Source: Roseimicrobium sp. ORNL1 | GTDB lineage: Bacteria > Verrucomicrobiota > Verrucomicrobiia > Verrucomicrobiales > Verrucomicrobiaceae | NCBI RefSeq assembly: GCF_011044495.1 | Contig: NZ_CP049143.1 | Coordinates: forward strand, 6,572,001-6,636,000 | Length of the DNA: 64,000 bases | Direction: 5' to 3' | In this document: one piece after another, positions 11,056-30,491 of the stretch | Numbering within the stretch: the stretch's first letter is position 1 | Layout of the letters: each line of letters opens with the position of its first letter | Translations under genes and position numbers: made by a program | Notes under the pieces: generated by a model | Databases searched by the model: none | What the model was told of the DNA's origin: nothing | The model's input: only the letters and a program-made list of their open reading frames with translations

Positions 11056-13344
11056 TCACTCCACCATTTCCACCTTCACGTCACAGGTGGAGCTGCGGCC
11101 ATGGTCATCCAGCACATGGAGTTTCCATGAGCCTGCGGTGGCCTTCCAGAGCAGTGGCTCGGCGGGCGTGCTGCTGCCGAGGAACTGCGCTCCGGCAAAC
11201 CAGAAGATGGTACGCACACCTGCGGACGTCTCGGCGCGTAGTGGGATGACCTGCTTGCTGGAGTCGTTCACCCGCAGCGAATACGTCAGCCTCGGCTGCG
11301 GTGATACGATGCGCGGGGTGTCCTGCGACTGGGCTGCACGCAGCGCCACCGAGCTGGCTTCCATCGGCGGCGCTTCACGGCGCGGCACGCCGGCCTGGCG
11401 GAAGAGTGCCAGCATGTCCGGTGGCCAGAACTCGTACACTTCGCGACGCAGTTTGCGTTTGCCATCGTCCGCCACCACGCGCAGACCCGTGCCTTCATCG
11501 ATCAACACTTCGCGATGGATTTCGCAAGGCGCGATGGACGACTTTCCGGGAATGAACCATCCCATGCGGCAGTGCTGGCAATGAGGTGTGGGGATTTGTC
11601 CGGACACGGCGCAGAGTTGCACCTCACGCACGCCTTCCGGTGGCACATCGCGATGCCAGGGAAGACGCAAGCGATGGAAGATTTCGAAGAGCAACGGTGC
11701 AGCGCATTTCCGTGCGATGAAGGAGGGATTGGACTTGCCGTTGAAGTTTCCAATCCACACCACGCATACATATTCTCCACGGATGCCTGCCGCCCAGGCA
11801 TCGCGAAACCCATGCGAGGTGCCGGTCTTCCATGAGATGGTCAGGTCACTGAGTCCAGCCTCTTCTTCGCGCGAAGCGAGCATGCGCCGCACCAGGAAGC
11901 AGGCCTCCGGAGTGAGCAGTGGGTTTGCCCCATGAGCCGTCTCTTGAGCAGCGTGTGCATACAGGAGCGGACGAGGAATACCATCCGTGGCTAACATGGC
12001 GTACATGGAGGCAAGCTCTTCCATGCTCACCTCGGCACCACCGAGGGGGAGCGAGAGACCGTAGTGCTCCGCCGGTCGCGGCAGGGAGACGCCCGCTTGC
12101 TTCAGGAAGCCATACAGGCCCGGCTCCGCCAGTTTCCGCGTGAGCGCGACCGCAGGAATGTTGCGGCTGCGGAAGAGCGCATCTTCTGCGGAGATGGGAC
12201 CGGTGAATTCGCGGTCGAAGTTTTCCGGATTGTAATCACCGAACGCTACCTGGCCATCACGCAGCAGGCTGCGTGGATGCAGCAGGCCCTGTTGAAGCGC
12301 CAGTGCGTAGATGAATGGCTTCAGCGCCGAGCCCGGTGAGCGACGCGCCGTGACGCCATCGACCTGCCCTGAGATATCCACATTCAGGAAACTCGCGGAG
12401 CCCACATAAGCCAGCACCTCGCGCGTGGGCGCATGCACGAGCAACGCGCAGGCATTCGTCATGCCTACCTCGCGGCGCACGGTGAGATAGTCACGCATCG
12501 AGCCCTCGATCTGCTTCTGCATGCCGAGATGGATGGTCGTTGCAAGGGGTGGATGCTGCACCGTGTCTGCCACAGTGACATCCGCGAATAAACGGCGCGC
12601 CAGATGCGGCGTCTCGCGAGGTGGCTTCGCTTCTGGCTGCAGCGTGAAGGTGGCATCGAGTCCATCTGCTCGCAGACCATGCGCCTCCTGCCAGCGCTGC
12701 CAGAGACGGAATTGCGCTGCAGCCAGCGCATCGTTGTTGCCCACGATCTTGGGGCGACGACGCGTGGGACTCTGCGGCAGCACACTGAGGCTTACCGCTT
12801 CACGCGGGGTCAGGTCCTTCGCAGACTTTCCGCACCACAGCAGCGATGCCGCGCCAACACCTTCCACATTGCCTCCATAGGGCGCGAGGTTGAGATAAGC
12901 CTCCAGAATCTCCTCCTTGGAATAGTGCCGCTCAAGTTGTAGCGCCCGCAACATCTGGACGAACTTCCCCGCGAAAGATTTTGTGGAGAGACCATAGCGA
13001 AGCCTCGCCAATTGCATCGTCACCGTGGACGCACCCCCACGCCGCGTGCCCGTCACCACACCCCAGCATGCTCGTCCCAGCGATAGCGGATTGATCCCCG
13101 GGTGCGAATGGAAATGCCGATCCTCCAGCAACAACGTCGCCTCGATGAGATCCGGACTGATCTCCGCCAGCGGGGTGTGCAGCCGATACCGTGCATCCCC
13201 CGCCAGCGTGAGATGAATCACCTTGCCGTCACGGTCGAGCAATGCACGCGAGAAGGTGAGTCCGTGGGGGTAGAGTTCGGGTTTGGGAGAGAGGGCATAG
13301 GTGAGGAGGGCGACAGCGGCCAGCAGCGCCAAGCCGATGGCCAT
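11056..13344 (-). CDS. pbpC: penicillin-binding protein 1C (bifunctional glycosyltransferase/transpeptidase)
   Basis: The protein is 762 residues from the ATG at 13344, which opens the single N-terminal membrane anchor and is preceded by AGGTGGG. The frame is open to 13560, but that extension is translated REP repeat and is rejected. The GT51 domain has EDRHFHSHPG (catalytic Glu74) and RGGASTVTMQ. The transpeptidase domain has SALK (Ser339), SRN (393-395) and KTGTS (506-510). The C-terminal 80-90 residues form the BiPBP_C domain seen in PBP1C. Its periplasmic role is to polymerise and possibly cross-link peptidoglycan. The alpha-2-macroglobulin gene lies upstream on the same strand, as in the enterobacterial yfhM-pbpC pair, but a transposase with REP repeats separates them. 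Confidence 0.94.
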   Translation of the reverse strand: MAIGLALLAAVALLTYALSPKPELYPHGLTFSRALLDRDGKVIHLTLAGDARYRLHTPLAEISPDLIEATLLLEDRHFHSHPGINPLSLGRACWGVVTGTRRGGASTVTMQLARLRYGLSTKSFAGKFVQMLRALQLERHYSKEEILEAYLNLAPYGGNVEGVGAASLLWCGKSAKDLTPREAVSLSVLPQSPTRRRPKIVGNNDALAAAQFRLWQRWQEAHGLRADGLDATFTLQPEAKPPRETPHLARRLFADVTVADTVQHPPLATTIHLGMQKQIEGSMRDYLTVRREVGMTNACALLVHAPTREVLAYVGSASFLNVDISGQVDGVTARRSPGSALKPFIYALALQQGLLHPRSLLRDGQVAFGDYNPENFDREFTGPISAEDALFRSRNIPAVALTRKLAEPGLYGFLKQAGVSLPRPAEHYGLSLPLGGAEVSMEELASMYAMLATDGIPRPLLYAHAAQETAHGANPLLTPEACFLVRRMLASREEEAGLSDLTISWKTGTSHGFRDAWAAGIRGEYVCVVWIGNFNGKSNPSFIARKCAAPLLFEIFHRLRLPWHRDVPPEGVREVQLCAVSGQIPTPHCQHCRMGWFIPGKSSIAPCEIHREVLIDEGTGLRVVADDGKRKLRREVYEFWPPDMLALFRQAGVPRREAPPMEASSVALRAAQSQDTPRIVSPQPRLTYSLRVNDSSKQVIPLRAETSAGVRTIFWFAGAQFLGSSTPAEPLLWKATAGSWKLHVLDDHGRSSTCDVKVEMVE

Positions 13345-13426
13345 TCGACGCACCCACCTACGTCGCCAAATATGAAACCTTAAGAACTCCGATACCTTCT
13401 TCAGTGCTGCCAGACCAACCGCATTC

Positions 13427-13530
13427 GCTGTCTGAAAGACAGCAGGAGCCCAGCCCAGGGTTAGGGAGCCTAAGCGACCGACACCCTGGGTAGACGCGCT
13501 AGAGCGTCGCGCTCTGAAAGAGCGCAGGAG
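13427..13530 (+). repeat. REP unit 1 (104 bp), two hairpins
   Basis: The unit starts with the hairpin GCTGTCTGAAAGACAGC and ends with GCGCTCTGAAAGAGCGC followed by AGGAG. A third, weaker hairpin (CCCAGGGTTAG...CACCCTGGG) lies between them. Two other 104-bp copies are at 14012-14115 (inverted) and 14338-14441 (direct). Both terminal hairpins share the CTGAAAG loop and the AGGAG tail, so each unit is a pair of related REP sequences. It ends 4 bp before the stop codon of the RAYT gene and covers the former 5' region of pbpC. Confidence 0.9.
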
Positions 13531-13534
13531 ATGG

Positions 13535-13987
13535 TCAATCCCAGACATAGCGTTCATCAAACTCCACGTCGTGCCTCTTCAGGAAGGCACGGAACTCGTC
13601 CTGGAAGCTCTGCTTCTGATGGTGCTCGCGTTGGTTTCGGATGTACTCAGATACCGCATCTACGTTCGAGGAACTCACGGAGAATGCACCGTAGCCGTGC
13701 TGCCAATAAAAATCACGCAACTGAGTGTATTGTGCGCGAAGCCAGTTCGTAGAACCCTTCTTCAGATCTCTCACCACGTTGCTGATGGTCGTGGTCCGCG
13801 AAAGGAGAAACAACACATGCGCATGGTCAGGCTCTGTGTTGATTTCCACGGATGAACAATCCGCCTCGCGTAAGACACCTCCCATGTAGTCGTGCAACGC
13901 TGGACGGATATCATCCGGCAACACCTTCACGCGATCCTTCGTTGAAAAGATCAGGTGGAGATAAACCTTCGCGAGGGACTGGGCCAT
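13535..13987 (-). CDS. REP-associated tyrosine transposase (RAYT), IS200/Y1 family
   Basis: The protein is 150 residues, the normal size for a single-domain Y1 transposase. It starts MAQSLAKVYLHLIFSTKDR, the first strand of the family. The metal-binding HUH is represented by DHAHVLFLLS. The C-terminal helix carries the likely nucleophile Tyr in AVSEYIRNQREHHQKQSFQDEF. Y1 enzymes cut single-stranded DNA at the foot of hairpins. Here the gene is flanked within 5-25 bp by inverted copies of a 104-bp REP unit, the typical RAYT arrangement in which a domesticated transposase maintains or spreads REP sequences. All conserved positions are kept, so the gene looks intact. It sits between the alpha-2-macroglobulin and pbpC genes, in the same direction. 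Confidence 0.9.
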   Translation of the reverse strand: MAQSLAKVYLHLIFSTKDRVKVLPDDIRPALHDYMGGVLREADCSSVEINTEPDHAHVLFLLSRTTTISNVVRDLKKGSTNWLRAQYTQLRDFYWQHGYGAFSVSSSNVDAVSEYIRNQREHHQKQSFQDEFRAFLKRHDVEFDERYVWD

Positions 13988-14011
13988 GGATGTTCAGGGA
14001 TGTGGCGACGA

Positions 14012-14115
14012 CTCCTGCGCTCTTTCAGAGCGCCATGCTTTTCACCAGCCACCCAGGGTGTCGGTCGCTGAGGCTCCCTAACCCTGGGCTGGGCTCCTGC
14101 TGTCTTTCAGACAGC
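14012..14115 (-). repeat. REP unit 2 (104 bp), inverted relative to unit 1
   Basis: This is the same sequence as 13427-13530 on the opposite strand, with a handful of differences. Its hairpins are at 14017-14032 and 14099-14115. With unit 1 it encloses the RAYT gene symmetrically, which suggests that the pair plus the gene moved or arose together. Confidence 0.9.
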
Positions 14116-14337
14116 GAGCTTCTACCAATAAATCGAGGGACGGACATGTGGCAAATAGTGTAGTGCTTGCGGTAACCGGCAAACATTGAACCTAAGGTTG
14201 GAACATGCATCAGCCAGGCCTCGCACAAGGTCTGGAATAGTGTGTGGCCCACAGCCACGAACTCCGAATTGTCTGACGAGCAGCATTCGGAGCCGGCCAT
14301 TCTACACATGTCGCCGCTCACATCGCCCGCGGTAGCC

Positions 14338-14441
14338 GCTGTCTGAAAGACAGCAGGAGCCCAGCCCAGGGTCAGCGAGCCTAGGCGAGCGCCACCCTGG
14401 GTGGGCGCGCAAATGCATCGCGCTCTGAAAGAGCGCAGGAG
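14338..14441 (+). repeat. REP unit 3 (104 bp), with a possible remnant of a second RAYT 3' end
   Basis: A direct copy of unit 1. Just beyond it (14442-14475, read on the minus strand) the sequence still encodes NNRYREWD before the repeat. This resembles the RAYT C-terminus DERYVWD, which stands in the same place next to unit 1. It may therefore be the 3' scar of a second, deleted RAYT gene. The stretch 14116-14337 between units 2 and 3 has no gene that I can recognise. Confidence 0.8.
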
Positions 14442-14542
14442 AGGGTGAATCCCACTCACGATATCGATTGTTCCACGCATGGGCTGCTAAAGCCAATTCA
14501 CCTTGCCAATCTCATTACGCCTCGGTGTTCCTTGATCTCCAC

Positions 14543-17500
14543 TCACTCCGCCGCCTCCACCACCAGCTTCCCACCAGGCGCACGGCCTTTGAAATTCTGG
14601 TCGTACATCGCTTCCGCATACACGGGTGGGATGACAAAGGTGCCGGCGGCGATGGGTTTGATGCGGTAGGTGAAGACCTGCACATCACCCTTGCGCACAT
14701 TCGTGAAGAACACGTTTCGATCTTCGCGCACCTCCACGAAATCCGCACCGGGCACAGTGTTGCGACCAGGGCGCAGGGTTCCCTGCTCGACTTCGAAACT
14801 ACCGGGAAGCAGATCCAGCAACGCCACATTTGTCTGGTCTTCGGGACTGATGTTCCGGATCACCAGCTTCACGGTGACGCTCTGGCCGACCTTCAGTTTC
14901 TCAATCGCCTTGCCGTCGGCATCCACAATTTCGCGGAAGACTTCGAAGCCATCCGTGATCTTGTCCTTCGAGTCGCCCTTGTCGAAGCCAGCTTCCACCA
15001 CCTGGTAGAAGGCGCCGAGATCTGTATCACCCTTGTCCAGGTTGAAACGGATGGTGCCTGCTCCCGCACCAAACGGTGCGCTCAACAGACCCGCGCTCGG
15101 CGGCACCAGGAGCTTCGGCTCCACGCCGGCAGCGCGGGCCACCTCGCTGATGCTCAGCTTCACATCGGACTTCTTCGCCAGCGCCGTGTAAGCCTTGAGC
15201 GCCATGATGCTGGTGGCGCTGCTGATCGTATTGAAACGATGCTTCGTCAGGGGCTCGGTGATCACGGCCAGATCCTTGTAGCCGAAGTCACCCGCGATGT
15301 TCGGGAAGTGACGGCATACAAGCGCGAACGCCTGCGCGTTGCGCACCTGCGGGTCACTCCACCAGCCACCGAGCCAGCGCTCAAAGAAGGGCTTCGGATC
15401 GGCCTTGCGACGGTATTGCTCCATGAGCGCGCGGCCTTCCCTGTCCTGCTTCAGCAGCATGTAGGTGCTGGCGAGATAGGCGGCGCCCATGGTGCCCTCC
15501 CACTTATCCTTGTACTCCTTCTCCAGCGTGTCGCGGAGATTGAGCACCTGGTTGGTGGTCACTTCGCCATTGCGCGTGAGCAGGTAGATCGCCGCAGCCT
15601 GGAAGGCGGCCTCTTCAAGATTTGCCGTCTTCGCACGAGCCATCTGCTTCATGCGATTGCGGGCACCATCGAGGATGTCGCTCGGCACGGCGTAGCCGGC
15701 ATCGCGCGCTTCCGTGAGGAATTCCGTCACGTACACACTGAGGAAGTCCGGCTTGGCATCGCAGAATCCATCCCAGTAGCCGAAGCCACCGTTGCCATGC
15801 TGACGCGTACGCAACAGCATGAAGGCAGCATCGAGTTGCTCGTTCGCCTCGGCCTTGTCGAAGCCGAAGTCCACTTCATCTACCAGCAGCAGGCGTGACA
15901 TGGCGCGACTCGTGATCTGCTCCGAGCATCCGTAGGGATACTCGCGCAAATACGACTCCAATCCACGCGCCAATCCCAGCGGCGCTGTACTGACCGTGGC
16001 GTTCGTCTTGCGGAACTCGGGGAACATGTCGCGCTTCACTGCGATGTCCTGCTTCCCAAGCCGGAAATAACCACTCTGCACATGCGTCATGTACGGTGTC
16101 GCCGGGCGCACGCTCAAGGTCGTCGAGCGCTTCGCCTCTTCCCCACCTGCGTTGGCGTGGAAGGTAAGCTCGGCACCACCAAGCTCCTCCTTCACGCGCA
16201 CGCGGAAGCGTGCCGTGGCTTCCTTGCCGGGTCCTACTTCCAAATTGGTCTCCAGCGGCGGCAACACTTCAAGGTGCTCCGTGCCCTCTACTTTCAACGC
16301 CACCGTTCCCGGCGCAGTTGGCCCTTCCAGATTGTTCGCCACAGTCAGGCTTGCCGTGAACTCATCCCCGGGCGCCGCGAAGAAAGGCGCATTGGGTGTG
16401 AGCACAAAGGGTCCCTTCACCGTGGCCTGCGTCTGTGCGGTGCCCACGATGTCCTCGGACACGGCCACCGCCATGATCTTCAGGCTGCCTGCGAAGTAAT
16501 CCGGCACATCATAGGTCACCTCCTGGCGATCCGGGCCACAATCGACCAGACCACTCCAGAAGACCACCGGCGCTTCCTTGCGACGCTTGAAGGGATTGAG
16601 GTGCATCTTCAGCGCCACGTCTTCACTGCCGCCGAAGGCCTTCTGCTTCATGAGCTGGCTGAACTCGGGCAGGATGAGGTCAAGGATCTGCTCGCTCTCC
16701 ACTTCCAGGGCGCGCTTGCGCATGAAATGCTTCAGCGGATCCGGCAGCTTGTAGTTCGTCACCTGATGGATGCCTTCGTCCACGGCATACACCACAATGC
16801 GTCCCGGCTTCGTTGTCTTGAAGCCGATGGTCATGGTGGTACCCGGCTTCACACGCTGCGGCGCATCCAGTTCCACCTGCATGCGACGCTTGTCTTCATC
16901 CGCAGCGAAAGGTTGCACCGCATAGCTCAGCGGACTGGTGAAGACCTCTGGTGAATCCAGCCCACGCACGAAGGAGACATTCACATAACCAGTGCCTTCC
17001 AGACCTTCCGGCACCATGATGCTATGCGTGGCGCTGGGCGTACCCTGCTTGATCCACTGCCAGCCGAGCACACGATCGCGCTCGATGGTGGCCAGCCCTG
17101 CACCCGTGAAGGGCGCGCGCAGGCTGAACTCCAGCGGCTGACCGCTCCGCAGGCTGGTGCTCGCGAGCTTCATCTCCAGCTCAGCATCACGCTCCAGGCT
17201 GCGCTCCGCATCACCCTTGCCCACCACGGTGAAGGCGGTGGCGCATACCACGTTTCCTTCCCCATCGCGCAGCTCAAAGCGATACTCGCCCGCCTTGCTC
17301 GTGGGCAGGGTGAAGCTTGCGCCATCCGCGGCCAGCGGCAATGCGCCTTCGCTGATGGGCTGCTCCCGCTTCGTGGACACATAAGCATAGTTGCCGTTCT
17401 CCTGCTTGGTGAGCACCGACACATGCCGGATATGCAGGATGTGCTGGGTCAGTCCGGGCACGGCCAACAGGTTCTGCTCCGGACCCACCGCGATCAACTT

Positions 17501-30180: not shown

Positions 30181-30442
30181 CGTCCCGGAGGGACGCTGGA
30201 TGGTAGCCGGTGGTGGAGGCCTGTAATCAGGCCGGGAACCACCGGATCATGGAGGAAAAAGATGCTCCGTCCCGGATGGGACGACGGAAGAGGTGGCCAT
30301 GGTCTTTTCCTCGTACCGTGAGTCTATGACGCTCTTCCGGCGTCCCATCCGGGACGCAAGAGCGTTTGGTGCGTGGATCCGGTGGTTGCGGTCGCTAAGG
30401 CTCCCTCCACCACCGGCTACCATCCAACGTCCCTCCGGGACG
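30181..30442. repeat. large palindromic element, family E, in a 408-bp gap
   Basis: Outer arms of 38 bp (30181-30218 and 30405-30442, one mismatch) begin and end with CGTCCCGGAGGGACG. Inside them are further inverted pieces around CCGGGAACCACCGGATC and its inverse, and a core with GTCCCGGATGGGAC and its partner GTCCCATCCGGGAC. Almost the entire 262 bp can fold on itself. The gap 30084-30491 holds no gene. Elements with a CCCGGAGGGACG core are a familiar sight in genomes of this phylum (recalled, not checked). Confidence 0.85.
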
Positions 30443-30491
30443 AGTTGCCAAAGCTCAATTCGAACTGGCTAGAGTTTTTAATTCAAACGCT

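Follow-up and report, generated by a model that had tools for sequence, protein, structure and literature searches.

REP-like three-stem units around an IS200-type transposase gene in Roseimicrobium sp. ORNL1

The transposase gene and its flanking units

The window analyzed here is a stretch of 64,000 nucleotides of the chromosome of the verrucomicrobial bacterium Roseimicrobium sp. ORNL1 (NZ_CP049143.1, positions 6,572,001 to 6,636,000). Within it, between the co-oriented genes for an alpha-2-macroglobulin (a2m) and for pbpC, lies a gene for a Y1/HUH transposase of 150 amino acids, encoded on the minus strand (13535-13987). The open reading frame (ORF) matches the Pfam family Y1_Tnp (PF01797) with E = 2.3e-27. 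The gene is bracketed by two inverted copies of a structured repeat unit of about 105 nt, with a third copy beyond them.

Unit 1 (13426-13530, plus strand) runs from hairpin A to hairpin B. Hairpin A (13427-13443) has a 7-bp stem closed by a GAA triloop, and is followed by the tail AGGAG (13444-13448). A central 9-bp stem with an inner loop (13453-13491, in which 13453-13461 pairs with 13483-13491) separates it from hairpin B (13509-13525), which faces the gene, again with a 7-bp stem and a GAA triloop. A second AGGAG tail (13526-13530) follows hairpin B, 4 nt from the transposase stop codon. Read on the other strand the tail lies 5' of its hairpin, and the agreement of the A and B tails and the tail counts given below make it a putative guide. 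Unit 2 (14012-14117, minus strand) is the inverted copy next to the 5' end of the gene, and unit 3 (14337-14441, plus strand) has the orientation of unit 1. All three are found by repeat alignment and by a model of the unit. The inverted arms 13425-13530 and 14012-14117 are 90% complementary over 106 nt, and the direct copies 13426-13543 and 14337-14454 are 89% identical. ORF, Pfam match and repeat alignments thus agree with the initial annotation, which placed a Y1 transposase between inverted units with a third direct copy. It had described the unit as 104 bp with two hairpins, and the third copy as lying 222 bp further; the hairpins with their AGGAG tail hold, while the unit has three stems and about 105 nt, and the gap between units 2 and 3 is 220 bp.

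Folded as single-stranded DNA (ssDNA), units 1 to 3 are each more stable than all of 200 shuffled sequences, with z scores of -5.29, -4.24 and -4.35. Aligned over 14 units, 99.5% of the cells in the proposed stems are paired and 14 of 27 pairs change on both sides. The covariation score was matched by none of 500 shuffles, and controls in which the structure was slid along the alignment were only 35-43% paired. At its gathering thresholds Rfam has no family that matches the units.

The element was proposed to be an insertion between a2m and pbpC, and comparison with relatives agrees. The gap between the two genes is just 26-61 bp in five of them, three from the same family (L160, L164, L165) and two from the same order (L167, L168), and 104-1025 bp in the others compared. 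The unit model found no unit at the a2m-pbpC loci of ten relatives (L159-L168). At three of these (L161-L163, same family, genus code g4) the junction carries another inverted repeat, resembling CGACTAAAGTCGGTACTCC.

A genome of the same genus, G387, has the transposase gene together with units 1 and 2 at the same site. Unit 3 was not found in the corresponding region, which beyond unit 2 is too diverged for a clean empty site to be recognized. Between G387 and the window the hairpins and the central stem are nearly unchanged, while the linkers and the DNA outside the units have diverged. The synonymous divergence (dS) between the transposase and its G387 ortholog is 0.99 and the nonsynonymous divergence (dN) 0.051. 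The ratio dN/dS is 0.052, and the protein is therefore under purifying selection.

The initial annotation also had unit 1 covering what was once the 5' end of pbpC. In G387 a possible ATG for pbpC is located downstream of the unit, as is the conserved N-terminal region of pbpC in the window, and because of this position the pbpC start has not been replaced by unit 1. We reject both an overlap with the 5' end of pbpC and its loss. The frame that is open through unit 1 (from a TTG at 13560) looks incidental.

Class of the transposase and units across the chromosome

The focal protein has HAH at residues 55-57 and its catalytic Tyr115 in the motif Y115---Q119--H122H123 (YIRNQREHH). In an alignment of 50 relatives Y115, Q119, H122 and H123 are invariant in all 50 sequences, and so are H55, H57, W95 and Q96. 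This alignment was drawn from 114 loci; one locus, L106, was excluded for an internal stop, and the rest lie outside the set. A regular expression for Y---Q--HH matches at 110 of the 114 loci. Of the four misses, L052 is among the 50 aligned sequences that have the motif, so its miss reflects the frame chosen by the script.

Profile searches and structure prediction place the enzyme near IS200. The NCBIfam IS200 model NF033573 is matched above its cut-off by four of the five paralogs of the genome, including the focal protein (67.2 bits against a cut-off of 55). The NCBIfam model for REP-associated tyrosine transposases (RAYTs; REP, repetitive extragenic palindromic), NF047646, gives at most 25.5 bits across the five paralogs against a cut-off of 80, and two of the five, the focal one included, have no match to it at E = 0.01. 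In a tree, six class-2 RAYT sequences from the same genome fall on a separate side (Shimodaira-Hasegawa-like approximate likelihood ratio, SH-aLRT, 96), and four IS200 rows lie, without a resolved placement, on the side of the subclass 1.2 sequences. An AlphaFold2 model of the focal transposase (predicted local distance difference test, pLDDT, 92.9; predicted template modeling score, pTM, 0.87) finds its best fold matches in the PDB in ISDra2 (E = 2.0e-9) and IS608 TnpA (7.0e-9), with TnpA_REP (4er8) weaker at 7.0e-6.

These properties agree with TnpA_Y1 subclass 1.2 as described in the parts of PMC6006769 available to us: Y---Q--HH, a WQ motif, about 150 amino acids, a conserved C-terminal part, low copy number and a relationship to IS200. 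Its published HUH motif is DH[IV]H; the four paralogs of the focal protein have DHVH, and the focal protein DHAH. Signature, size and profile results point to the focal gene as a member of this subclass. Membership rests on these three properties. The genome has five transposases of this type. Identities between the focal protein and the other four are 38-58%, and the genome contains no second near-identical full copy of the focal block.

Class-2 RAYT homologs occur in the chromosome too. Their model has 17 matches, four of them over the cut-off, and one of the 17 is a subclass 1.2 paralog. One of the 16 class-2 RAYT-like genes, L242, has GCGACGAAGTCGC hairpins with the tail CAAGC on both sides.

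A search of the genome for further copies, as had been proposed, was productive. A covariance model of the unit, applied to the 7.96-Mb chromosome, found at least 98 units with E values up to 0.01, a lower bound in that 150 of 3356 first-look candidates were scored. Seventy of them form 35 inverted (+-) pairs with hairpin B facing inward. The spacers of 29 pairs measure 39-46 bp, of two 66-69 bp and of four 470-523 bp, and all four of the longest contain transposase genes, the focal gene included. Neighboring units within 120 bp are found as 31 (+-), 0 (-+), 1 (++) and 0 (--) arrangements, where 0.15 in total would be expected on average under random placement. The 31 dispersed (+-) pairs with spacers of 69 bp or less have the trait of REP doublets forming hairpins (REPINs) and bacterial interspersed mosaic elements (BIMEs), although their size and make-up differ. 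Each of the five paralogs lies between inverted units of its own type.

The 51 top-scoring units, which include the two of paralog L014, constitute family 1. Where tails were read (42 of the 51 units), hairpin A is followed by AGGAG in 30, and hairpin B by AGGAG in 22 and CGGAG in 12, the same type as at the focal units. The remaining 47 score lower. In 36 of these, from 20 regions, a filter for NACA-type tails was passed by 32, of which 26 have CACA at A and 26 at B; these tails match the units of paralog L016. There are thus two amplified unit families with different tails, each matching another resident transposase. Across 42 of the 51 top-scoring units, the information content approaches zero some 7 nt beyond the unit; the outer border 5' of hairpin A has the family majority CCGAAGT, and reads CCGCATT at the focal locus (13419-13425). 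The borders differ between families 1 and 2, and a pairing rule between guide and cleavage site was considered and none established.

Some of the short pairs have spacers reminiscent of the gene-bearing pairs. The inner flank begins with [TC]CGT[CTG], like the transposase leader, in 12 of 42 cases, and ATGGTC, AAGGTC or TTGGTC occurs within 26 nt in 8 of 42. This weakly suggests short pairs derived from gene-bearing pairs by internal deletion, which we do not claim.

Ten dispersed pair sites were compared with G387: one is shared, three are empty, one has its flanks about 10 kb apart and five are unresolved. At E values up to 1e-6 the unit model has 62 matches in G387, 0-63 in eleven other members of the family, and 0, 1 and 35 in three members of the order. 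Another genome of the family contains an array of alternating plus and minus units with a period of about 246 bp (G234:C50:70838-72043).

Elsewhere in the window there is a further three-stem unit (30335-30444, minus strand) with another tail type, its hairpins being followed by TTGGA and CCGGA. One similar unit each lies at chromosome positions 2616484 and 2895576, and this tail type was seen with none of the five subclass 1.2 transposases of the genome. Outside the element the window also holds a cyclic di-AMP riboswitch (RF00379; 39074-39244, minus strand), with a score of 50.5 bits where the gathering threshold is 38.

Relatives in other genomes and phyla

Relatives were taken from two sources, 80 loci among 558 relatives listed from named contigs, and a draw of 387 genomes of the phylum Verrucomicrobiota. 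A profile of the five paralogs was matched in 93 of the 387 genomes. Twelve of the 93 matches are weak, with no E value of 1e-20 or lower; four or more of the twelve (among them G054, G072, G207 and G351) are probably IS200 class 1.1 genes. The initial annotation had called a complete example in this phylum unusual. The five such transposases in the genome and the 93 matching genomes speak against an isolated case, and REP repeats in Verrucomicrobia had already been reported, as the GTAG repeats of Opitutus terrae (PMC3733652, in the parts available to us).

We scored a flanking hairpin as a stem of at least 5 bp with a loop of GAA, AAC or AAA, within 130 nt of the gene and in inward orientation. 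Among 109 of the 114 loci (own five included; duplicates L131 and L139 and short-flanked L049, L068 and L142 excluded) such hairpins lie on both sides in 60 and on at least one side in 85. In the wrong orientation they lie on both sides at 2 of the 109 loci, and control windows of the same loci gave 1 in 744. Without the own five loci the count is 57 of 104, and no further identical copies were found. With phylum labels assigned by hand, both-side hairpins are present in 14 of 19 and 14 of 31 loci of Verrucomicrobiota (two subsets, own five included), 11 of 13 of Planctomycetota, 2 of 5 of Acidobacteriota, 17 of 36 of Bacteroidota and 2 of 5 others. In wider windows of 300 nt, measured from the edge of the profile match rather than of the gene, both-side hairpins were present at 1 of the 12 class-2 RAYT loci of the own genome and at none of 6 loci of IS200 class 1.1. 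Flanks of at least 150 bases on both sides are available for 111 of the 114 loci, and 56 of these 111 lie above the 99% point of a cross-locus control; similarity among the units inflates this control as well. At one locus, L106 on a Flavipsychrobacter contig, the transposase stretch has an internal stop and its flanks still carry inverted hairpin units.

The tails follow the enzyme. Within units the A and B tails agree at 3.84 of 8 positions, compared with 2.95 (standard deviation 0.09) when shuffled, in 144 picks from 228 flanks, some of the picks being central stems instead of hairpin A or B. Similarity of tails is correlated with identity of the proteins (Mantel r = 0.386 overall, and 0.312 when restricted to pairs under 65% identity; p = 0.0005), over 69 tails from 40 of the 50 aligned sequences, and this correlation is stronger than that of the 5' side of the hairpin. 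Across the 387 genomes of the phylum the hairpin AGCCCTGAAAGGGCG occurs in 30 of the 93 with the transposase and in 14 of the 294 without (Fisher p = 3e-11).

PMC6006769 lists subclass 1.2 as lacking REPs, as far as the parts of it available to us go. That published trait does not extend to the loci studied here: the both-side hairpins at 60 of the 109 are a new finding, and the trait is no part of the sequence definition of the subclass. In contrast to the published description, flanking units are frequent in members from Verrucomicrobiota, Planctomycetota, Acidobacteriota and Bacteroidota, and in the own genome they are dispersed. A literature search by title and start of abstract, covering mainly open-access papers and no bioRxiv preprints, found no report of repeats for subclass 1.2 among the papers listed, and in a search of mainly open-access papers the string GCCCTGAAAGGGC did not occur. 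The portions of PMC11194056 examined describe RayT genes near abeS in Chryseobacterium and do not mention repeats.

A probable resident enzyme with satellite units

We consider it likely that the IS200-lineage transposase has become resident in the genome, is inherited vertically and is accompanied by REP-like satellite units of its own. A unit contains two triloop hairpins in direct orientation with a common short tail, joined by the central stem. The left and right ends of IS200/IS605 elements carry two hairpins in the same orientation. The strand of the unit that has the tail 5' of each hairpin would correspond to this layout of left-end and right-end hairpins with 5' guides, and would be the one processed. 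Guides 5' of the hairpins have been described for both IS200/IS605 and REP systems (PMC8266576, in the parts available to us). We infer that the focal transposase processes the units. It would bind the ssDNA hairpins through the tail, and Tyr115 would cleave near the outer and inner borders of the unit. Single units, and especially inverted pairs (about 256 nt, REPIN-like), would thereby be mobilized, while the gene-bearing copy would stay in place under purifying selection.

More broadly, and with somewhat less assurance, we favor the reading that subclass 1.2 runs a REP system of its own parallel to that of the class-2 RAYTs. The three-stem unit would be a left-end/right-end element in miniature that multiplies chiefly as inverted pairs, and in four phyla or more its guide-like tail would have diverged together with the enzyme.

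Several observations weigh against these interpretations. In the covariation test, 294 of 500 shuffles had at least as many further pair types as the real alignment, which was also the source of the structure under test. The focal HUH motif departs from that of subclass 1.2. The three sites empty in G387 could be losses there. By our strict definition 49 of the 109 loci lack both-side hairpins and 24 have none on either side. The 5' side of hairpin B also weakly tracks the protein (r = 0.146, p = 0.001; and 0.114, p = 0.01). The transposase was not detected in 14 of the 44 genomes bearing AGCCCTGAAAGGGCG, which hold 119 of its 233 copies. In 12 Bacteroidota genomes one tail-bearing hairpin occurs in 9, and its copies are few (0-18 per genome) and partly clustered. 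One of the genomes with AGCCCTGAAAGGGCG, G359, has 39 copies and no transposase at E = 1e-10, which could be orphan units or the mark of an unrecognized enzyme.

A further difficulty comes from an outer repeat, since a DDE-type transposon might spread the unit pairs by means of terminal inverted repeats (TIRs), the Y1 gene and hairpins being passengers in a composite miniature inverted-repeat transposable element (MITE). We think this unlikely, although part of the data is in its favor. Of 15 family 1 pairs, 9 are flanked on one or both sides by a TIR-like motif resembling TTGCGYAATAGRCTGACA (up to 5 substitutions), and 11 of the 15 matches to this motif in the genome adjoin units. Relative to G387, insertions of about 400 bp that include the motif are found at 5195719 and 6486312, which are among the three empty sites. 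The repeats start 28-60 nt outside the units, and the composites are about 400 bp at two sites. Because the TIR is present in 9 of 15 pairs and is absent together with the unit at two of the three empty sites, another transposase may move the TIR-bearing composites, and a TIR transposon may be spreading a subset of the pairs. As a general explanation it is opposed by the absence of the motif from 6 of the 15 pairs and, within 3 mismatches, from positions 13001-15000 of the window, and by an association of transposase and units with tail matching that spans phyla. No target-site duplication was established, with the TIR motif examined in family 1 only. The entire unit-gene-unit block could instead be an ordinary insertion sequence (IS) of IS200/IS605 type that moves as one, which we regard as improbable. 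The gene does lie between ends with subterminal hairpins, and protein and fold are of IS200 type, with HUH and Tyr, and with two hairpins in the same orientation, each preceded on one strand by a conserved motif, as in IS608 and ISDra2. A single IS, however, would carry one hairpin at its left end and one at its right, whereas here the gene stands between two complete inverted two-hairpin units. The genome has no near-identical second copy of the block, the four paralogs being as divergent as given above, and the block occupies the same site in two species with its protein conserved.

The units might also act as RNA elements, terminators or mRNA stabilizers between a2m and pbpC, beside which the transposase gene is incidental. 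Their position between co-oriented genes would allow this, and the stems could form in RNA too, but the matching of tail and transposase, the gene in the spacer of an inverted pair and the association across phyla leave it very improbable. The slightest chance of all we give to a canonical class-2 RAYT with GTAG-type REPs, and we reject membership of the transposase in that class. The general logic is alike, a Y1 transposase residing in a genome where hairpins are scattered as inverted pairs, yet the RAYT model is below its cut-off or unmatched in all five paralogs, the proteins have YxxxQ--HH rather than YxxxNP, the six class-2 sequences from the same genome stand apart in the tree, and the focal tail is AGGAG rather than GTAG.

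The resident enzyme with satellite units nevertheless has close parallels in the RAYT/TnpA_REP systems with their REPs, BIMEs and REPINs (the REPtron). In both there is a resident single-domain Y1 enzyme, a hairpin type for each enzyme and dispersed inverted pairs; the protein lineage is another one, and a unit of about 105 nt made of two direct hairpins and a central stem takes the place of a single REP of 20-40 bp. The initial annotation spoke of a RAYT-REP partnership. The REP-like, inverted and dispersed units are borne out; the label RAYT is wrong by lineage and right in spirit, given the enzyme-specific inverted-pair hairpins. The TIR-associated Y1 transposases (TIRYTs) and TIRtrons of PMC3733652 are also similar, in that a Y1 transposase lies between long inverted repeats, some of them self-complementary and repeated in the genome. 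TIRYTs have a GGGGWSAS motif, and PMC6006769 puts 20 of 26 in subclass 2.1, the other six in 2.2 and 2.5, and none in 1.2; for both papers this holds for the parts available to us.

REP/RAYT is a well studied case of a domesticated transposase with many hairpin satellites, in which the manner of spread of the hairpins is still unsettled. If our interpretation is correct, a group of enzymes without a reported repeat partner gains its candidate substrate. A second lineage with the same lifestyle, a composite unit and naturally matched enzymes and tails within one genome would provide a clean test of guide recognition and of the amplification of pairs. The scope is wider than the window, as an IS200-type subclass reported to lack partner repeats appears to have REP-like satellites.
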